DNA of 64,000 nt from Ignavibacteriales bacterium (GTDB lineage: Bacteria; Bacteroidota; Ignavibacteria; UBA10030): NCBI GenBank assembly GCA_026390595.1, contig JAPLFQ010000024.1, positions 62,001-126,000 on the forward strand. The letters are read 5' to 3'. Position 1 is the first letter of the stretch; each line of letters begins with the position of its first letter. The notes beneath the pieces are model-generated. The model made no database searches. It was not told where the DNA came from and saw only the letters and a list, made by a program, of their open reading frames with translations. Shown piece after piece: positions 1 to 10,446 of this stretch. The translations under genes were made by a program, and so were the position numbers.

Positions 1-1914
1 ATAGGGTGTGCTGTGCTCTTTGGCCTCGTGCCTCGGCTCCTGCTGCCGTCGATTTTTGCTGATCAACCATGGCGTCGACGAGCCGCGGGTTTTCTCATCG
101 CGGGCACCCTCGTTGTCGTGACTGCTCACCTGCTCGTGCTTGCGACGATGTACGACGGTGTTGCCCTTGCCACGGTCTGCCTGGGAATGTTGGTAGTGCG
201 TGTGTGGTATTCGGTTTCCCGCCGATCGGTGCACGGTTTTGAGAGCCTTTTCTCGAATCTCCTTCGAATGCTGGACGTTGTATCATGGACGTATTGTAAG
301 GAGTGGGGAAGACGCTGGTTCAAGTCTGTGGGGGAACGCATCGATGCTTTCCACGTACTTTCTGTGGTTGTCCTCGCAGCCGTCATCGCTGCGACGGGGC
401 TTATTCGATTGGTGCCGGTGTGGAGTCACGCCGCCCCATTCTCCATCGAATACTATGAGACCCTCGAACAGGTCAAACGTCTTCAGATTAACCAGATGTA
501 CGGCGGTGGATATCGCGTGCCGTTGGGGCTCGCCATGCTCGCACAGACATTAAGCTTCTTGTCGCAGGTGAATATAGCGATCGTTCTTCATTTCCTCGGG
601 GCGGTATCGTCCATGATGCTGGCCGGTTCAATTGCGTATGTGGTGTACCGTGCCACGTCGTCTTTGCAGGGCTCAATCATCGGGGCGGCTCTTTTTGGTT
701 TGTCCAGCAATTTCCTGCCGATGGATTTGCGCCATCAGGTGGAAGCGGATAGTCTCGTGCTTGCGAGCGCATTTCTGCTGCCGTCGTTGTCACTCTTTGC
801 AGAGTATTGCGTCGAGCCGCAGCTCCGTACGCTTGCCGCTGCAATCGCCGGCCTGTTCTGTGCGCTGACTATCAGCCTGTTTGTCGGGACCTTCGCTCTG
901 GTCGGGGTATTCATCATTCTTATCGGCGCATTGTTTTTCGCATACCGGCTACCGTGGCTGCGCGGCACACGGCTGTTGGCGATGATCGGCGTCGCGGTCG
1001 CGCTGTTGATCGGGGGCGCACTCTTCGTGAGAGCACTGCAGGGATATGAGGGATTCAAGAACACGGTGCAAGTGCTCATGTATGACCAGCATGTCAACAG
1101 GTACTTTTCATTGTACGAGGGTTTGCCGCATCTCTTCGTGTTGATGAGTGCAGTGCTCTTCGGTGTCACGATGCTTCTCAGCGTATGCCGTTTCTCGGAG
1201 AAGTCGCTCCATCTCCAATTGTTTTCGTGGGGGGCTCTCGGCATTGCGCTTCTGCTTCTCGCCCAATACCTTCCTGAAGAATGGGCTGCTGCTGTCCCAT
1301 TCAGTCAAATCTGTTTCCTTCTGTCGGTCGTGACGGCAATAACCTTCGGGATCACCGTGGGATGGGGCATCAGGTTTGGGAACGAAGCGCTGGGGCATCT
1401 TCGGGCCCGTGGGTGGATGAGAGACTCCTGGCGGCTGCTGGTACTCGGAGCCGCACTCTGTTGTCTATGGCTCTACTCGCCGGCGCAGCGGGTGACATTT
1501 GAATACACTGCAGAACCCGATGGTTTCGCGAAAAGCCTCTATCTCATCGAACAGAAATACATGCCGTATCAGTGGACGGTGGTTTCACACCGGGGAACCG
1601 CTCTAAGCGGGATGAACCGCGGCCGATTTCTCGATTACGGATATTTCTACAGCAGCTTCGATCCGGAAACTTACAAGCATGGGACGAAGGGGGCAGTCCC
1701 GACGCCGTTGCTCTTTATCTTTGTCGAACGAACACACGAGAAATCGAATATTGCCACTGAGTTGGCCACTGTGAACATTGGTTCAGCTGCAAACATCAAG
1801 CACTGGCTGGATACATATCAGAAAAACCATTATGATCTTAAGGTCTTCTACAGCGACGAGGAAGTAATCGTCTACAAGCTTGAAGACATGACCGTCAACG
1901 CGCTGAGAGGATAG
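1..1914 (+). CDS. Polytopic membrane protein, 5' end cut by window
   Basis: The frame is open to the first base of the window, so the GTG at 13 may be internal and the true start may lie upstream. The visible 633 residues hold many hydrophobic segments (about 10 or more), spread from residue 1 to about 500, followed by a soluble tail of about 130 residues. The arrangement resembles polytopic glycosyltransferase or polysaccharide-assembly membrane proteins, but I see no diagnostic motif. The next gene starts 30 bases downstream on the same strand, so it may lead the operon that ends with the deacetylase-TPR-barrel protein. A role in surface polymer synthesis is inferred from that context only. 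Confidence 0.7.
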   Translation: MGCAVLFGLVPRLLLPSIFADQPWRRRAAGFLIAGTLVVVTAHLLVLATMYDGVALATVCLGMLVVRVWYSVSRRSVHGFESLFSNLLRMLDVVSWTYCKEWGRRWFKSVGERIDAFHVLSVVVLAAVIAATGLIRLVPVWSHAAPFSIEYYETLEQVKRLQINQMYGGGYRVPLGLAMLAQTLSFLSQVNIAIVLHFLGAVSSMMLAGSIAYVVYRATSSLQGSIIGAALFGLSSNFLPMDLRHQVEADSLVLASAFLLPSLSLFAEYCVEPQLRTLAAAIAGLFCALTISLFVGTFALVGVFIILIGALFFAYRLPWLRGTRLLAMIGVAVALLIGGALFVRALQGYEGFKNTVQVLMYDQHVNRYFSLYEGLPHLFVLMSAVLFGVTMLLSVCRFSEKSLHLQLFSWGALGIALLLLAQYLPEEWAAAVPFSQICFLLSVVTAITFGITVGWGIRFGNEALGHLRARGWMRDSWRLLVLGAALCCLWLYSPAQRVTFEYTAEPDGFAKSLYLIEQKYMPYQWTVVSHRGTALSGMNRGRFLDYGYFYSSFDPETYKHGTKGAVPTPLLFIFVERTHEKSNIATELATVNIGSAANIKHWLDTYQKNHYDLKVFYSDEEVIVYKLEDMTVNALRG

Positions 1915-1943: not shown

Positions 1944-3485
1944 ATGATGGTTAGCTCGCTTCTGAAAAAGCAGCTCACGGCGTTCTTGAGCAGCGTGAGC
2001 AAACACAACAGCGTCGCCTTCTGTCTGACGGATGCGCTGCTGCAGCCTGTTGTGAGCACGGAGAATTTCCATCCTGAGAGTCTTGCACGATCTGCGGCAT
2101 CCGGTGGAAGGCTGTTGAAAACCGGCTCCGGCAACAAGGAGGTTTCGTTGAGGCTCTTTGCAGAGAAAGCAGCTGGATGCCCGGACACGGTGATGGTGGA
2201 AGCCGTTGTTGATCTCGCGGCGGACGGGATCGGATACTTCGTCAAGAGCGAAGCGGAGATCCAGACGCTTTCGGAAGAACTGCTGGAACGGTACCAGGAA
2301 CTCCACGTTTTGTATGATGTGATCGAAGATGTAAGCACAGTGTTTGACAAGAATGAGATTTGCAGAATAATCCTGGCAAAGGCAGTTCATTCGCTCAACG
2401 TCGGTTTCGGCACGGTGGTGCTGATGGACGGAACCGGCCTGGCGATTCAGGCCAGGGAAACCGACCCGAAATCGACATTGGCTTTCAGTGAGGATGATTG
2501 CCTTTCCTATGCGAGAGATATCGTCTCGAGCAGAAAACATCTGATCCTCGAGCGAACGGAGCAGAACAACCAATCTGTCCTCGGTGTGCCTATCGATGTC
2601 GATAACAGGGCAATCGGCGCCATCGTCCTCCTTGCCAAAACCGGCGGAGAGATGTTCACGTCCGGCGACCGGATTTCGCTGACCGCGTTGGCCGGCTATC
2701 TCGGTGTTGCTGTGAACACGGCCCGTCTGGTGGCGGAAGCGCGCGAGGCAGAAGGGCTTCGGCACGAAATTGAATTTGCCCAGCAAATTCAGCAGAGCCT
2801 CCTGCCGGATCGTGTTCCGGAATTCGCGAGGCTCGATGTCGCAGCACTCTGCCTCCCCTCAGCCCAGGTCGGCGGAGACCTCTTCGGATTCATCAAGCTG
2901 GATTCTCAACAGTGGGCGCTTATCGTAGCTGATGTTGCGGGGCATGGCCTGGGTGCGGCATTCATCATGGCATCGTTGCGAAGCATTCTCAGGTCAGAGG
3001 CCAAACCCGGAGTCAGCGCGGCCGACATCCTCAAGAACTCGAACAACCTGCTCAATGAGGACACGCGCGGAAACGATGTCTTCGCGACGGTATTCGTTGG
3101 ATTGTATTCCGAGGAGGATAATTCTCTCAGGTATTCAAACGCCGGACATCCCCCGGCGCTTCTGTGGAAGGCGGCGACACAGGAGTTTCTCGAATTGGCA
3201 GAGGGGGGAGTTGTCCTCGGCCTTTTCAGTGATGAGACGTACGAAGAAAAACTCACGCACCTTCAAACGGACGATATCCTCGTGCTGTTCACGGATGGAA
3301 TTGTAGAATCAAAGAGTGACGACGGGCTTCTCTATGGTGACGACCGGTTGCGGGACGTCATCAAAACCAACGCGAGGTCGTCATCAGAAGAACTGATGAA
3401 GGCAATCCTTGAATCGGTTGACCGGTTTCGGAACGGCGCCCGCCAGCGTGATGATGTGACGATACTCATTTTCAAATCTCGATAA
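1944..3485 (+). CDS. GAF domain PP2C/SpoIIE-type serine phosphatase (RsbU-like)
   Basis: The 513-residue protein has an unassigned N-terminus (about 1-110), a coiled segment, a GAF-like domain (about 125-270) and a C-terminal PPM/SpoIIE phosphatase domain (about 275-512). The metal-binding acidic motifs of the family are visible: GGDLFG, DVAGHG, TDGIVES and QRDDVTI. Family members of this type dephosphorylate STAS-domain antagonists in partner-switching circuits. A STAS protein is encoded about 2 kb downstream at 5496 on the same strand, so it is the likely substrate. ATG at 1944 is followed by a second ATG; either could be used. The receiver gene follows after 16 bases, which fits an operon. 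Confidence 0.9.
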   Translation: MMVSSLLKKQLTAFLSSVSKHNSVAFCLTDALLQPVVSTENFHPESLARSAASGGRLLKTGSGNKEVSLRLFAEKAAGCPDTVMVEAVVDLAADGIGYFVKSEAEIQTLSEELLERYQELHVLYDVIEDVSTVFDKNEICRIILAKAVHSLNVGFGTVVLMDGTGLAIQARETDPKSTLAFSEDDCLSYARDIVSSRKHLILERTEQNNQSVLGVPIDVDNRAIGAIVLLAKTGGEMFTSGDRISLTALAGYLGVAVNTARLVAEAREAEGLRHEIEFAQQIQQSLLPDRVPEFARLDVAALCLPSAQVGGDLFGFIKLDSQQWALIVADVAGHGLGAAFIMASLRSILRSEAKPGVSAADILKNSNNLLNEDTRGNDVFATVFVGLYSEEDNSLRYSNAGHPPALLWKAATQEFLELAEGGVVLGLFSDETYEEKLTHLQTDDILVLFTDGIVESKSDDGLLYGDDRLRDVIKTNARSSSEELMKAILESVDRFRNGARQRDDVTILIFKSR

Positions 3486-3501
3486 GGGAGTTCCAGAAGC
3501 C

Positions 3502-3876
3502 ATGGCCGGGAAATCAATACTCATTGTCGATGATGACAGCACCATACGAAGACTGCTGATGTATCATCTGGAAAAAGCCGGATATGATGTTTCCATTGCG
3601 GAAGACGGTGTCGAAGGACTGGCGAAAGTCGAAAGCCTGAGGCCAAACGTCGTTGTCACGGACCTTATGATGGCCTTCAAGGACGGGTTCGAACTGGCGC
3701 GCGATATCCGGAGCCGCAAGGAGTTCGATGAGATCGCCATTATCGTCCTCACCGCCCGTGACCACCTGAGCGACGTCGACGAGCTGCTTGCGTCGGGGGT
3801 CAATTGCGTGATGAAGAAACCATTCAATCCACAAGAGCTGACCAAAACAGTACGGGAGCTCACCGGGGAAAAGTAG
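3502..3876 (+). CDS. Single-domain response regulator (CheY-like receiver)
   Basis: The 124-residue protein consists of one receiver domain with no output domain. The N-terminal acidic pair sits in the ILIVDDDS strand, the phospho-acceptor Asp is in VVVTDLMM, the Thr is in VLTARD and the conserved Lys is in MKKPFN. The residue normally Pro after the DxMM segment is Ala here. The gene lies between the RsbU-like phosphatase and the HD-GYP protein, so it probably passes a phosphorylation signal to one of them; the cognate kinase is not obvious in this operon. Confidence 0.92.
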   Translation: MAGKSILIVDDDSTIRRLLMYHLEKAGYDVSIAEDGVEGLAKVESLRPNVVVTDLMMAFKDGFELARDIRSRKEFDEIAIIVLTARDHLSDVDELLASGVNCVMKKPFNPQELTKTVRELTGEK

Positions 3877-3896
3877 TTGCTTCGATTCGGACCACT

Positions 3897-5432
3897 ATGT
3901 TCGACAACATGTTTTCAAAAAAACCGCAAGTAAAGCCGGCACGTCCTGAGAGCGATTTCTGGCGCAGAGTGGCGTTGTTGCCATTAGAGAGCCAGTCCGC
4001 CGAGGCGTCATACAAATTTTTGCTCAATGTGCTCGACGGCATACTCATAAGTCCGGCCTACTATGTCTACGTCGTATCATCAGGCGGTGATGTTCTTGGC
4101 CTTGAACATATGGACCTTCGGCTCGATCGTCCGGAGTCTGCGAAAGCCCTGGGAAAGGACCCTGACCTGATCGAGCTGCTCCAGAGCCCGGAAGCGCAGT
4201 TGCGGTTCGACCCCGATTTCAAGACACTTCGGTTTGTCGAAGTTTGGGCCGGTTCATTTCTCAATCTTCCGCTCATCGGCCATGACGGAAAGTATGTCGG
4301 GAGCATATTTGCGGGGCCGGCATTGGCCCGTCCGTTTGACAAAACGGCCGCCGCCCTGCTCAAAGACTACTCGCTCGCGATGGGTGCGAGCGTCCAGAAG
4401 ATTCGCTCAATCACGAGGCTTCAGGAGGATCTTCGGATCGCGGCCACACGCGCTCGTGTCACGCAGAGGGTGCTCGGATCAGCGCTTGAGGTGGATCGGT
4501 TTGTCTCGTTGCTCCTGGATCTTGCCCTGACCGCAAGCAAGACGGAGGCCGGGTTCGTTGCCATAGCAGGGAACGATATGCTGACGGTCCGGGCATCGAA
4601 AAACCTTCCCGATGCGTTCCTCTCGCAAATCAATCTTTCTTCGGAGGGAGGCCTTTTTGAATGGTCGCTGGATGCGGACGACGTTCTGATACTGCAGGAT
4701 TTCGAGTTCATCGCGAAGTTCGGCATTCGATCGATTCTTGCCGTACCTCTCGTCGAAAACAAACAGCTTCACGGTGTTTTTGCACTCATCAACTTCGCAT
4801 CGAGCAAAACGTTCGAAGAGCAGAGTCTGACGATACTCAGAAGCTTCTGTGACCAGATCAAACTCGTCATACAGAATTCCAAGTTGTTTGAGGATTTTAC
4901 CCAGAGTTATCTTGGTACCCTGAAGGCGTTGAGCGAATCCTACGATGTGCGATCACCCTACGGAGCGGGCCACTCGCACAAGGTTGCTGCAACGGCATTG
5001 GAAATCGGGAAGGCGCTTGGCCTGAAAACAGAGGACCTCGGCCATCTCGAGCTGGCGGCACGCATACACGATGTAGGCATGTGCGGTGTCGTTGAGATCA
5101 AGACGGGCTTCCGTGCCGATTTCAATCATCCCACCATCGGAGCAAGCCTGGTGGAGGTCCTGCCGATCTCTTCCGATGTCACCGAGGCCATCCGGACGCA
5201 CCACGAATGGTATGACGGCTGGGGATATCCGGAAGGATTGAAAGGGGAGGCGATTCCACTGCTCGGAAGAATCCTTGCTGTTGCGGAATATTATGAAGAA
5301 ATTCAGTCAGGGGATCTTCAGGAAAAACTTCGAACGCCTGAAGCGATGGACGAAGAATTTGATACCCGCAGCGGAACGCAGTTCGACCCCAGGGTTATTG
5401 GTGCATTGAAACAGATTCTGCAGAAGCGCTGA
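3897..5432 (+). CDS. GAF / HD-GYP-type protein with altered catalytic residues
   Basis: I place the start at ATG 3897, after the receiver stop; an earlier in-frame ATG at 3804 would overlap the receiver by 73 bases. The 511-residue product has an N-terminal sensory region (about 30-170), a GAF domain (about 195-335) and a C-terminal HD-GYP-like domain (about 345-505). Recognisable motifs are H359, the HD pair H391-D392 and HHEWYDGWGYPEG at about 435. The HDxGK lysine is Met395 and the usual final metal-ligand Asp is Glu464. HD-GYP enzymes hydrolyse cyclic di-GMP; with these changes the domain may be a binding module rather than an enzyme. It lies upstream of the STAS gene and the polysaccharide-type export protein. 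Confidence 0.85.
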   Translation: MFDNMFSKKPQVKPARPESDFWRRVALLPLESQSAEASYKFLLNVLDGILISPAYYVYVVSSGGDVLGLEHMDLRLDRPESAKALGKDPDLIELLQSPEAQLRFDPDFKTLRFVEVWAGSFLNLPLIGHDGKYVGSIFAGPALARPFDKTAAALLKDYSLAMGASVQKIRSITRLQEDLRIAATRARVTQRVLGSALEVDRFVSLLLDLALTASKTEAGFVAIAGNDMLTVRASKNLPDAFLSQINLSSEGGLFEWSLDADDVLILQDFEFIAKFGIRSILAVPLVENKQLHGVFALINFASSKTFEEQSLTILRSFCDQIKLVIQNSKLFEDFTQSYLGTLKALSESYDVRSPYGAGHSHKVAATALEIGKALGLKTEDLGHLELAARIHDVGMCGVVEIKTGFRADFNHPTIGASLVEVLPISSDVTEAIRTHHEWYDGWGYPEGLKGEAIPLLGRILAVAEYYEEIQSGDLQEKLRTPEAMDEEFDTRSGTQFDPRVIGALKQILQKR

Positions 5433-5495
5433 GCACACACCGGGACGCATCCGAAGTGCCATCGGCAGCTTTGAATTGAACAATCGAGGAACATC

Positions 5496-5834
5496 ATGGA
5501 ATTCACCGCACACCAACAAGGAGACGTCGCGATCGTCGTTCTCCATGGAGAACTTGACGTTGCGCTTGCTCCTCGGCTGAAAGCCTTGCTGAAGGATACC
5601 ATTGAACAGGGGAACAAGAAGATCGTCGTCGATATGAAGAACGTTCTCTTTGTCGACAGCTCCTGCCTCGGCGTCATGGTCAATGCACACAAATTGGCCG
5701 TCTCCCTTCACGCGGCGATAAAATTCGCCCAATCAAGCGAGCAGGTGCGGAAGATTTTCGAATTGACGCGGACGGACAAACACCTTTCTTTTCATGCGAC
5801 AATCGATGAAGCAATAAAAAGCTTTGAGTCGTGA
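5496..5834 (+). CDS. STAS domain anti-sigma factor antagonist
   Basis: The 112-residue protein is a single STAS domain of the SpoIIAA/RsbV type. The phospho-acceptor region DSSCLG is present at about residues 54-59. In partner-switching systems the unphosphorylated form binds an anti-sigma kinase; the RsbU-like phosphatase at 1944 would activate it. No RsbW-type kinase is visible in the window, so the kinase would be encoded elsewhere, or the protein may act on a different target. Its stop codon overlaps the GTG that opens the next frame, which suggests coupling with the deacetylase-TPR-barrel gene. Confidence 0.9.
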   Translation: MEFTAHQQGDVAIVVLHGELDVALAPRLKALLKDTIEQGNKKIVVDMKNVLFVDSSCLGVMVNAHKLAVSLHAAIKFAQSSEQVRKIFELTRTDKHLSFHATIDEAIKSFES

Positions 5835-8800
5835 TCAGAAGGCGGCCTTGCGCCATGCGCGTACATCGATCAATCGGCATCTGGTTCATTCTCTTCTCGT
5901 TACAATCCGCTTTCGTTTCCTGGAACCCCGGCGCGGCACAATCTCTTTCCAATTCAGGTGTCAATCGTCCGCTTAAGACCTCAGCCCTGGTGTTGTACGA
6001 CACGACGGAAGAGTACGGCATGTACTGTTTCGCTCAAACGCTGATCTCGCTTCGGTACGCACGCCTTCCTTTCCATTCCTACAACCTGGCCCGATCGAGC
6101 GACCTCCCGTCACTTGATGAATACACGTCGGTCCTTATCACAACGGAGACCGTGTGGAAGCTGAATGAACAAGCGTGTGCGAACCTGACCCGCTACGTTC
6201 GTGACGGAGGAGCAGTGGTGGTGTTGTTCCGCGGATGGAACCCGAATCTTGAAGACCTGTTCGGCATCGCCTACAGCACAGCCCCCACAGTCATCGGTGA
6301 AAGAAGCCGCGGACTTGTGTTTACGAAAGAACTCCTCCCCGGTATCAACAATATCTCGATCAATGACCGGCTGCTCACCGATATTTCGCGTTTCGATGTC
6401 CAGCTGGACAGCACGGTCAGCGTGTTTGCCAGGACCTACATCGGCGATCATCCTGCGGCCTGGTTCCGGCGTTATGGCCGGGGCAAAGTGCTCTTCTGGG
6501 ACACGTCGCTGCTCACGACGCGAATCTACAGAGGATACATCCTCGCTTCGATCGGGTGCGTTCAGCCCTGGACGTCGGCGCTGTTGTTGAATGTGTCCAA
6601 TGTCTCACTCGACGATTTCCCCCTCCCCTCGCCGAACGAAAAAATTGAGCCGATCAAATCCGAGTTTAACGAGACGGCGTCGGAGTTTTATTCCTTCCGC
6701 TGGTTCCCCGACTTGGTGAAGCTGGGGAGGCAATTTGGTCTCCGCTACACCGCCGGGCTTATCTTCAACTACAGTGAAATGACGAAGCCGCCGTACGCTT
6801 TCAACGAGTGGTCACGGAGCCAGATTACTCTCGCCGGCAAGCCGATGAATTCCTCCGTCTGGGTCGCGCGTCAGGCCTCGCGGACAATAGAGCTGGCCTT
6901 TCATGGCTATAACCATCAGCCATTGACCCTGTCGAGGTGGGGTTCAAAAGAGAACATGACGCTGGCGCTTCAGGCGGCCAGGAGGCGGTGGGAGATGGAC
7001 AACCTGGGTCCGGAACCGCTTGGTTACATTCCGCCGATGAACATCATTGATTCTGTCGGGTTGCGCGCACTTGTCGATGTCTTTCCGGGTATCCGGGTTG
7101 TCGGCGGCCAGTTCATGGGAAATTTCGATCTTGGCCAGGCGCGGGAATTTGGCCCCGATCCCTGGAACGAACATGTGATCGACGTCCCGCGGACGACGAG
7201 CGGTTACGAGATGGATGATTTCAACAAGATGATGACAATCTCGATGATTCATTCCGTCGGTGTCTGGAATCACTTTATTCACCCTGACGACGTGATTCCC
7301 ACATCGGGCCGGTACCAGGAAAGCGTCCGTGAAGATCACAATACGGATGTCGCGGGTTGGTATAATGAGCCGAAGAAAAACGGGCTCTACTATCGGTTTC
7401 AGGAGTGGTTGAAATTCGTCCGGGATTACTATCCATGGCTGCGCAGCTTTACGCTGACGGAGGCCCGTGACGCGGTGATGGAGTACGCATCCGCATCCGC
7501 TTCCGTGGCATCGGAAGGCAAGATCGTTCGCTTCACCAGCAGCCTGACCCCCGCTCACTTCATGTTCTACCTCCCGGATAACAATCCAATTGAGCACGTT
7601 GAAGGAGGAGAAATACTGCACGCTGAAAATCTTGCCTTCACAGATTACTACATCCTGAAGTCGACAAGGCCGACGATGACGCTCACGCTGAGAGATTCGG
7701 TCGGCTCGGTGACCCTGAAGGGACCGGAGCAGGGGAACCTCTACAGCATTGATCGATCGGGGCGCAATGATATCTTACCTCCGTCCCTATCCGTCGCAGG
7801 AAAGACCATTGCACCCGCAGCACCGAAAACGATGATTCAACAGGTGGACGACCTGATCGGTGCGGGCAAACAGCAGGATGCGATCGCCGTGCTGGAGACT
7901 TCGCTGCGTGACAATTCCAATGATGTTGAGTTGTGGAAAAGGCTCCGACAATTGTATGATTGGAATAATCTGTCAGACAAAGCCATCAAGTCGGGCGAGA
8001 ACATCGTCCGGCTTGCGCCAAACGACCGCGCGGCGTTGAAGAACCTTGCTCAGCGATACGTGGGGGCAAACAGGCAGAGAGAAGCTATTCCATTGTATGA
8101 AAAACTCCTGCGAGCTGATTCCAAAGACATGGCGACACTGAAAGCGCTGGCGCAGAATTATGTCTGGGCAAATCGGCAGAAAGACGCAATACCATTGTAC
8201 GAAAGACTGGTGAAGCGTGAGCCTGGAAACACCACTCTCCGCAAGACGCTGGCAGACCTTTGTTTTTGGAATTCCATGAACGACGAGGGTATCCGCCAGT
8301 ATGAGCAGATTCTGCTGATCGAAAAATCCGACACGGCGACGATGAGGCTTCTCGGGGAAAAGTACCTCGAAGCGAACCGCCAGGCCGACGCCATTCGTAT
8401 CTACGAAGGGCTCCTGCCGTACGAGCAGAGAAGCTCCGCTCTTAGGAAACGTCTGGCTCAATTGTATCTATGGAATAACGCGGGCGGCAAAGCGATCGAA
8501 CAATACGAATCGATCGTGGCCTCGAACAAAACAGATCGTGAAGCTCGAAGATCCCTTGCGCGAATGTACCTGGAGAACAGCTCGCTCGACAAGGCGATTC
8601 CTCAGTATGAACGGATCATCCATGACGAACCAAACGATGTTGCCTCGCTGAAGCGCCTCGGAGAACTCTATCTCTGGAAGGAACGCCAGCAGGAGGCGGT
8701 CCCGATCTTTCAAAGAATAGTGCAGGCCGAACCAGACAGTATTCCATCCCGCGTGATGCTGGGTCGTCTTTGTGTGTGGACGAAGAACCCCGGGGGCGGA

Positions 8801-9826
8801 AAAGCCGAGTTCGTTGAGGTGTTGCGGCGGGATCCAAGGAACAGGGAAGCGCTCACATTGCTGGCCGATATTGAGCGGGGCGAAGGGGAGTGGTACGCCG
8901 CCAGTTCGCGCTATGGCGAAATCCTCATGATCGATCCATCCAATCGGGAAGCCAGGATAGGGATCGAGGAGATTCGTCGTGACCATGGCCTTCTCCTGAA
9001 ATCATCGTATGAGCGGACCGAGGATTCGAATGATCTCGTGCGTGAACAAGTGCCTCTCGCCGCGGGAATGATTCAGGGAAAGAAATGGAACCTGGGCCTC
9101 CATGCGCTTCGGCAGAGCGTCCTTGACAGAAGACTCGCGCTCACAGAAGTCGGTTACGGCCTGGGAATGACCGGGCAGTATCTCTTGATGCAAGGGATGT
9201 CGCTTTCTGGATCTGTGATCGCCACGTCCTATGAGTCCAACTGGACCCCGGTATCGTTGTCGCTCCAGGTCGATAACGTGCTGACGCCGCGGGTCACCAC
9301 CGCGTTGAAGCTCCAGCGGTTCGAGACGACTGAAGGCGTTCAGGCAATCAGGACAAGAATCTACGTGAGCAGAGTTGCAGGTGAGTTGTTCTACCAGACC
9401 ACGGACAGGTTGAGCATCTCGGGGGCGGCGGAGGTGAATTCGTATTCTGACGACAACACCAAGACGACAGTCGCCAGCTTCATGACATATAAAGTACGTT
9501 TGGGCGCACCGTCGATCACGCTTCTCGCGAACTACGCCTATCAGGATACCAGGGTAATCTATCGTACTTCAATTCCGTACTGGACTCCATCGCTTCTCTC
9601 CACAACATCAACGGGTGTGAATGTTGTGCAGGACCTGTTTGCGGGGTTGACGGTCGAGGCCGCGTATTTGCATACACTGCAGGCGGGGGTCTTCTCCAGC
9701 AACGTCCGCGGCCGAATTACACTCAGGCCGTCGATGTTTTCGCAGATAGTGGTCGAGTACGAAAGACTCGGCTCAACAGTCTACTCACAAAACACGGTTA
9801 GAGCGGTGCTGCAGTATCGGTACTAA
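5831..9826 (+). CDS. DUF2194/NodB-like deacetylase, TPR and outer-membrane beta-barrel fusion
   Basis: This is a 1331-residue envelope protein. ATG 5855 is an alternative start that gives a cleaner signal peptide. Residues about 50-230 look like the DUF2194 N-terminal (amidotransferase-like) fold. Residues about 255-560 carry polysaccharide deacetylase-like motifs: LDDFPLP at about 260, HGYNHQ at about 358 (compare HxxxH), GYIPP, and HPDD at about 484. Residues about 675-1055 contain at least nine TPR-like repeats with repeated LYERLL and LW/LYLW elements. The last 270 residues alternate polar and aromatic residues like a transmembrane beta-barrel and end in YRY. In known exopolysaccharide systems (PgaA/PgaB, PelA/PelB) deacetylase and TPR-barrel exporter are separate. 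A fused modification and export protein is inferred. Confidence 0.82.
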   Translation: MIRRRPCAMRVHRSIGIWFILFSLQSAFVSWNPGAAQSLSNSGVNRPLKTSALVLYDTTEEYGMYCFAQTLISLRYARLPFHSYNLARSSDLPSLDEYTSVLITTETVWKLNEQACANLTRYVRDGGAVVVLFRGWNPNLEDLFGIAYSTAPTVIGERSRGLVFTKELLPGINNISINDRLLTDISRFDVQLDSTVSVFARTYIGDHPAAWFRRYGRGKVLFWDTSLLTTRIYRGYILASIGCVQPWTSALLLNVSNVSLDDFPLPSPNEKIEPIKSEFNETASEFYSFRWFPDLVKLGRQFGLRYTAGLIFNYSEMTKPPYAFNEWSRSQITLAGKPMNSSVWVARQASRTIELAFHGYNHQPLTLSRWGSKENMTLALQAARRRWEMDNLGPEPLGYIPPMNIIDSVGLRALVDVFPGIRVVGGQFMGNFDLGQAREFGPDPWNEHVIDVPRTTSGYEMDDFNKMMTISMIHSVGVWNHFIHPDDVIPTSGRYQESVREDHNTDVAGWYNEPKKNGLYYRFQEWLKFVRDYYPWLRSFTLTEARDAVMEYASASASVASEGKIVRFTSSLTPAHFMFYLPDNNPIEHVEGGEILHAENLAFTDYYILKSTRPTMTLTLRDSVGSVTLKGPEQGNLYSIDRSGRNDILPPSLSVAGKTIAPAAPKTMIQQVDDLIGAGKQQDAIAVLETSLRDNSNDVELWKRLRQLYDWNNLSDKAIKSGENIVRLAPNDRAALKNLAQRYVGANRQREAIPLYEKLLRADSKDMATLKALAQNYVWANRQKDAIPLYERLVKREPGNTTLRKTLADLCFWNSMNDEGIRQYEQILLIEKSDTATMRLLGEKYLEANRQADAIRIYEGLLPYEQRSSALRKRLAQLYLWNNAGGKAIEQYESIVASNKTDREARRSLARMYLENSSLDKAIPQYERIIHDEPNDVASLKRLGELYLWKERQQEAVPIFQRIVQAEPDSIPSRVMLGRLCVWTKNPGGGKAEFVEVLRRDPRNREALTLLADIERGEGEWYAASSRYGEILMIDPSNREARIGIEEIRRDHGLLLKSSYERTEDSNDLVREQVPLAAGMIQGKKWNLGLHALRQSVLDRRLALTEVGYGLGMTGQYLLMQGMSLSGSVIATSYESNWTPVSLSLQVDNVLTPRVTTALKLQRFETTEGVQAIRTRIYVSRVAGELFYQTTDRLSISGAAEVNSYSDDNTKTTVASFMTYKVRLGAPSITLLANYAYQDTRVIYRTSIPYWTPSLLSTTSTGVNVVQDLFAGLTVEAAYLHTLQAGVFSSNVRGRITLRPSMFSQIVVEYERLGSTVYSQNTVRAVLQYRY

Positions 9827-9990: not shown

Positions 9991-10446
9991 TCAGTCCCAT
10001 ACATACCTCTCGTCGAAGTTCACTCCATATTCCTTCAGGAATGACCGATACTCATCCTGAAACGTCTTTTTCCTGTGGTGACCCTCCTGCCCAACGATGT
10101 ACTGTTTCACTCGTTCCATCTCTGACTCCCCAACCGAAAACATACCATATCCGTTCTGCCACGCAAATTTCGCAAGCATTCTTCCTTTTGTCTTTATCCA
10201 TTTGGAAGATCCACGTTTGATATCGCCGACGAACGATGCTATCGAGTGATTGCGCGAAAGAGAACAAAGAATGTGCACATGGTCGACGGCTCCGCCGACG
10301 GTTAAGACTGGGCATTCCAGTTCATTGCACGTACCGCCGAGATAGGCATGCAATTCGTCGCGAATTTTCTTGTCTGCCAGGAATGGGTATCGATTCTTTG
10401 TTGAGAAGACAATGTGGACCAATACCTTGGCGAGTGATTGTGGCAT
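9991..10446 (-). CDS. REP-associated / IS200-like tyrosine transposase (Y1_Tnp)
   Basis: The 151-residue protein matches the Y1 single-strand transposase family: the HUH metal motif appears as DHVHIL at about residues 55-60 and a candidate nucleophilic Tyr lies in the KQYIVGQE helix at about 116. The length fits IS200/RAYT proteins (about 140-180). It is flanked by palindromic repeats on both sides instead of defined IS ends, so I favour a domesticated or REP-mobilising transposase over a simple insertion sequence. The start ATG lies next to the first palindrome of the downstream repeat cluster. Confidence 0.9.
   Translation of the reverse strand: MPQSLAKVLVHIVFSTKNRYPFLADKKIRDELHAYLGGTCNELECPVLTVGGAVDHVHILCSLSRNHSIASFVGDIKRGSSKWIKTKGRMLAKFAWQNGYGMFSVGESEMERVKQYIVGQEGHHRKKTFQDEYRSFLKEYGVNFDERYVWD

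Follow-up and report, generated by a model that had tools for sequence, protein, structure and literature searches.

The closest described relatives of the locus analysed here are the pel operons of Pseudomonas aeruginosa (pelABCDEFG) and Bacillus cereus ATCC 10987 (pelDEADAFG). In P. aeruginosa, PelB is a 16-stranded barrel preceded by TPRs, and PelA was reported to bind the TPR region of PelB (PMC12141448). In the Gram-positive B. cereus, the deacetylase PelADA comes without the hydrolase, is membrane-anchored and carries neither TPRs nor a barrel; its catalytic and activating residues are D262, D263, H350, H354, P405, R458, H488 and D491. PelD of this organism binds c-di-GMP, and no partner switch is part of the operon as described (PMC13254593). 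Partner switches are known from SiaABCD, HsbA-HsbD and BgrSTUWV, where a c-di-GMP enzyme is controlled by a STAS or STAS-like protein whose state is set by a phosphatase and a kinase. The pairs concerned are SiaC-SiaD, HsbA-HsbD and BgrV-BgrR, each with a diguanylate cyclase as target, and BgrR drives a beta-glucan (PMC8457831). In Vibrio fischeri, the STAS protein SypA is under serine kinase/phosphatase control and is needed for polysaccharide-dependent biofilm; this system uses one bifunctional regulator (SypE) and belongs to another polysaccharide locus, and the target of SypA is unknown (PMC4517449).

The DNA analysed here (the window; 64,000 nucleotides, contig C24 positions 62001-126000) contains at 1944-9826 the downstream part of a longer operon that starts 6.8 kb upstream of the window. 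We consider it probable that this operon is for a Pel-type exopolysaccharide and includes a complete partner switch of its own, which would act locally through an HD-GYP protein. The arrangement occurs in at least two distant bacterial groups and is apparently not yet described; a literature search that covered few subscription journals returned neither a Pel operon with a partner switch nor a DUF2194-TPR-barrel protein. With the P. aeruginosa operon the locus shares PelF, PelG, PelA-type hydrolase and deacetylase functions and a TPR-barrel exporter. It differs from P. aeruginosa in having hydrolase and deacetylase on separate proteins, with a CE26-like deacetylase joined to the exporter, in encoding two PelF and a GT-C-like protein, and in including the partner switch and the HD-GYP protein in the operon. 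Neither PelC nor PelD was seen in the cluster. The deacetylase is of the same family as B. cereus PelADA and likewise without hydrolase. Whereas the Sia, Hsb and Bgr switches act on diguanylate cyclases, the candidate target here is the HD-GYP protein, and the switch lies inside the Pel operon.

Feature coordinates are listed in Table 1. Positions upstream of the window refer to the extended locus L009 (window position = L009 position minus 18000). The five reading frames that the initial annotation had placed in this region were recovered at their positions, and Pfam searches gave the domains proposed. Intergenic gaps are small or negative with two exceptions, 202 nt in front of the listed PelG start and 63 nt in front of the STAS gene. 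The STAS frame and that of the 1331-residue protein had been described as coupled by overlap, which holds with 4 nt if GTG at 5831 is the start; ATG at 5855 is a possible alternative. In the uncultured member of Ignavibacteriae G049 (CAISDA010000083.1), the two genes are 6 nt apart. Promoter scans at the locus gave matches at chance level, terminator scans were uninformative, and an Rfam search of the 64-kb window gave no match. An IS200-like Y1 transposase gene (window 9991-10446, minus strand; Pfam Y1_Tnp 7.1e-27) is located just 3' of the operon. Upstream of the operon (L009 3183-8890), apparent polysaccharide-degrading enzymes are encoded, which by reading only were alpha-L-fucosidase-like, GH97-like and heparinase-like.

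Table 1. Features of the operon in gene order.
Feature	Position	Strand	Basis or remark
GH114 hydrolase domain, then in-frame RsbW/SpoIIAB-type HATPase	L009 11229-12527	same strand as window genes	
PelF, first copy	L009 12524-13729	same strand	
Sugar epimerase	L009 13740-14654	same strand	
PelF, second copy	L009 14651-16165	same strand	
PelG	L009 16368-17870	same strand	followed by the membrane protein ending at window 1914
Polytopic membrane protein, 3' part	window 1-1914	+	start about 150 nt before window
RsbU-like PPM phosphatase, GAF-SpoIIE	1944-3485	+	Pfam GAF + SpoIIE 1.4e-51
Stand-alone receiver (response regulator) protein	3502-3876	+	Pfam Response_reg 1.8e-25
GAF/HD-GYP protein	3897-5432	+	Pfam GAF + HD_5 3.6e-23; ATG 3897 probable start
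STAS anti-sigma-factor-antagonist-like protein (RsbV/SpoIIAA type)	5496-5834	+	Pfam STAS 4.4e-16
Fused PelA-type deacetylase/PelB-type exporter, 1331 aa	5831-9826	+	Pfam DUF2194 3.5e-74 + TPRs
DUF2194 region, CBM114-CE26 deacetylase homologue	5960-7627	+	PDB 9zau match, residues 58-576
TPR solenoid, about 11 repeats	7823-8983	+	Pfam TPR_19 7.4e-29; AlphaFold2 helices, model residues 6-392
C-terminal 16-stranded outer-membrane beta-barrel	8984-9823	+	AlphaFold2 model, structure matches

The N-terminal part of the 1331-residue protein was homologous to the solved structure of PelADA (E 8.6e-54), and this homology speaks for a deacetylase fold. In the alignment (chain offset 25), the PelADA catalytic residues correspond to D261, D262, H358, H362, the MT3 proline (P401/P402), R454, H484 and D487, and D486 is also among the matching residues. 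Thus Asp-Asp, HxxxH, the MT3 Pro, Arg and His-Pro-Asp-Asp of the CE26 signature are all kept. Residues 660-1331 were modelled with AlphaFold2 from an input of seven sequences. The model (mean pLDDT 86.9) shows a TPR solenoid followed by the predicted 16-stranded barrel, with strands at protein residues 1052-1330, which is the order of PelB, PgaA and BcsC. With a pTM of only 0.55, the model does not fix how solenoid and barrel are angled to each other. The barrel was best matched by PgaA (4y25, Z 27.1 over 268 residues at 2.0 A), PelB (9h80, Z 25.2) and BcsC (6tzk, Z 24.2). The protein is predicted to be located outside the cytoplasm. The initial proposal of deacetylase, TPRs and barrel in one chain is thus borne out by homology to the characterised PelADA, by the confidence of the model and by the conservation of neighbouring genes. 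The accompanying suggestion of exopolysaccharide modification and export was right in kind, whereas its PgaA/PgaB parallel gives way to a specifically Pel-type assignment through PelADA homology, PelF and PelG. A Pga system was ruled out: the barrel is marginally closer to PgaA than to PelB, but PelADA is the nearest match of the deacetylase, and PelF and PelG are encoded in its operon. The protein offers a naturally occurring PelA-PelB modification-export contact within one chain and would be useful for structures of deacetylation feeding export.

Both PelF proteins scored above the NF038011 cut-off (282 and 180 bits versus 100). The PelG orthologue of G049 reached 29.9 against a Pfam cut-off of 29; the focal protein is below the cut-off (E 0.007) but is the syntenic orthologue. 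The GH114 part matched the PelA hydrolase structures 5tcb and 9cgy, so that PelA-type hydrolase and deacetylase (9zau) are both present, on two separate proteins. A search for PelD found none in four genomes, and control genomes gave no match either. The polytopic membrane protein had no Pfam match. Its AlphaFold2 model (pLDDT 65.9, moderate confidence) matched OST/STT3, PglB and ArnT (Foldseek E 7e-7 to 3e-3, Z up to 19.5), and with moderate confidence the predicted fold is GT-C-like. A divergent alignment of nine sequences contained no invariant acidic residue. The gene is a regular neighbour of pelG and DUF2194 genes and is syntenic in Bacteroidota, Balneolota, KSB1/Calditrichota and Chloroflexota. 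In the proposed pathway, the two PelF-type glycosyltransferases would polymerise a hexosamine, for which the epimerase gene may supply sugar nucleotide, and PelG would move the polymer through the inner membrane. Polymers of Pel type are partially deacetylated alpha-1,4-GalNAc. The fused protein would perform the last periplasmic steps, namely de-N-acetylation by the CBM114-CE26 part, guidance along the TPR scaffold and exit through the 16-stranded barrel. The PelA-type hydrolase (GH114) is encoded separately from the deacetylase.

Two frame irregularities were found in the focal copy. pelG contains an in-frame TAG (L009 16350-16352, 1.65 kb upstream of the window) in a conserved N-terminal region, at a position that is Trp in most aligned orthologues. 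Hydrolase and kinase form one open frame, whereas they are separate genes in G049 and Kryptonia. A putative lipoprotein signal was seen by eye in the hydrolase part; the kinase of a true fusion would therefore lie outside the cytoplasm, and its translation from an internal in-frame GTG at L009 12114 is the more plausible reading. Given the pelG stop and the missing stop between hydrolase and kinase, the focal copy may be imperfect, through decay or assembly errors; assembly error, decay and re-initiation are each possible causes. That the focal copy is a decaying remnant which makes nothing, with working copies in relatives, appears unlikely to us. The two irregularities and the absence of the locus from congeners (five had neither the HD-GYP gene nor DUF2194) would agree with decay, but all other frames are open with key residues intact, translation could be recovered from a start codon 3' of the pelG stop and from the GTG preceding the kinase, and single-base assembly errors are possible.

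The partner-switching module noted in the initial annotation is present and more complete than noted there, since an RsbW-type kinase is encoded upstream of the window; the set comprises a PPM phosphatase, a STAS protein with a phosphorylatable Ser and a GHKL kinase. The phosphatase metal-site aspartates D312, D330, D451 and D503/D504 are invariant in five orthologues. The receiver has the acidic residues of D10-D12 as well as D54 and K106. The STAS protein scored above the TIGR00377 cut-off, and its D54-S55 is invariant in nine homologues. The N-box E/N and the G-boxes of the kinase are invariant in the sequences aligned. SpoIIAB and RsbW are the named families closest to this kinase, and sigma-70-family genes with partial SigBFG similarity occur in the genomes, as would suit a classical anti-sigma circuit in which RsbW holds back a sigma factor whose gene lies elsewhere until the STAS protein releases it, and polysaccharide is affected through transcription. 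We regard this circuit as improbable: in the genomes read, the cluster contained no recognisable sigma factor gene, no SigB/F/G protein exceeded the curated cut-off in the four genomes tested, and the STAS domain is fused to the HD-GYP protein in many relatives. The focal genome has a single GGDEF protein alongside three strong RsbW-type kinases; therefore c-di-GMP may exist in it, but as a small network.

The HD-GYP protein matched the HD-GYP phosphodiesterases 5z7c and 4mcw in PDB profile searches. It had been called degenerate, which is correct for HDVGM in place of HDIGK and VAE in place of the final VAD, so that the full consensus is not present, but not for H364, H396-D397, H416 and HHEWYDGWGYP, which are kept in the alignment. 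The consensus used (HDIGK, VAD) is general knowledge together with 5z7c and 4mcw. The focal protein has GYP where the Kryptonia and KSB1/Calditrichota rows of the alignment have GFP. In Kryptonia and several KSB1/Calditrichota genomes a C-terminal STAS domain is part of the HD-GYP protein. Between the two domains lies a cysteine-rich linker (CWxFKGEPxxVCxxCP...C..HGD..C..CF; L028 8999-11050, L048 7857-10004 and orthologues) that is suggestive of a metal or redox site. From these fusions and by analogy with known partner switches, the HD-GYP protein is the most likely target of the switch, and the fusions point to regulation at this protein rather than at the deacetylase-exporter.

In a partner-switching module, binding partners are exchanged according to phosphorylation. 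Under the local-switch reading, the RsbU-like phosphatase and the RsbW-like kinase would set the phosphorylation of STAS Ser55, and the receiver and the GAF domains would feed signals into the switch. In its unphosphorylated form, the STAS protein would bind the GAF/HD-GYP protein, with which it forms one polypeptide in relatives, and control it; the GAF/HD-GYP protein would in turn gate the synthesis machinery locally, via c-di-GMP or direct contact. The analysis shows the families, the catalytic residues, the predicted fold, the synteny and the fusions, and from it we infer polymer identity, phosphorylation chemistry, binding partners, direction of control and regulatory output. We consider the regulatory idea plausible and better founded than it first looked. 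Control of the operon would apparently pass not through a PelD receptor but through protein phosphorylation and an HD-GYP protein, and because the STAS-HD-GYP fusion recurs, the output of the switch is open to direct test. More tentatively, the locus could stand for a distinct class of Pel operon, in which the switch acts on a pseudo-HD-GYP protein by direct contact, not by c-di-GMP hydrolysis, and one polypeptide combines deacetylation with outer-membrane export; we would rather doubt this.

The order RsbU-REC-HD-GYP(-STAS)-DUF2194 was kept in 15 genomes of Ignavibacteria/Kryptonia and KSB1/Calditrichota, as far as contigs and fetched stretches reach (some are cut by contig ends). This is far beyond chance, and the neighbours called for by the initial annotation are thus conserved together. 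STAS is fused to HD-GYP in 10 of the 15, while the focal order and G738/G739 have it as a gene of its own; RsbW is encoded upstream of PelF in the eight genomes with the upstream part read. HD-GYP homologues are patchy, with 9 of 391 genomes in the class and 6 of 82 in the KSB1/Calditrichota group. A Chloroflexota genome (G699, L134 212-6708) carries SpoIIE, HD-GYP, two STAS and an RsbW-type kinase beside PelF, arranged differently; its PelG and DUF2194 genes are on a separate contig. These data bear on the view that an ordinary Pel operon lies beside an unrelated regulatory cassette, the HD-GYP protein being a plain c-di-GMP phosphodiesterase and the fusion protein having no link to the switch. 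Most metal-site residues of the HD-GYP protein are indeed present, and Flavobacteriaceae and Balneolaceae commonly encode a protein of about 1300 residues starting with DUF2194 together with PelF, PelG and GH114 in loci without RsbU, STAS or RsbW (Balneola retains an HD-GYP-like protein). This view is nevertheless very unlikely, as the cassette lies inside the operon, its kinase gene at one end and its phosphatase and STAS genes at the opposite end, an order shared by 15 genomes, and the Chloroflexota genome keeps the association in its rearranged form.

The fusion was present in three genomes of one order, the focal genome (G000), G049 and G097 (Bacteroidota GS28 3892). In six KSB1/Calditrichota genomes the TPR-barrel has its own gene beside DUF2194, incomplete at some contig ends. 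In six Kryptonia genomes DUF2194 forms a protein by itself, which resembled a lipoprotein wherever its N-terminus was read, and the neighbourhoods read contained no recognisable adjoining barrel gene. Restriction of the fusion to the focal locus was ruled out by many Bacteroidota and Balneolota proteins with DUF2194 and about 700 further residues, which were read as TPR-like plus barrel by eye, with DUF2194 the only Pfam call. In the tree, the focal three group with the separate-gene KSB1/Calditrichota proteins, and a single origin of all fusions as one clade was weakly rejected (AU p 0.038); this weakly suggests that focal and flavobacterial fusions arose apart. In the DUF2194 protein of the Kryptonia genome G140 (L029 8021-9892), IDN stands in place of the catalytic Asp-Asp and FLGYNH in place of HGYNH, and because of these replacements the protein is probably catalytically inactive.
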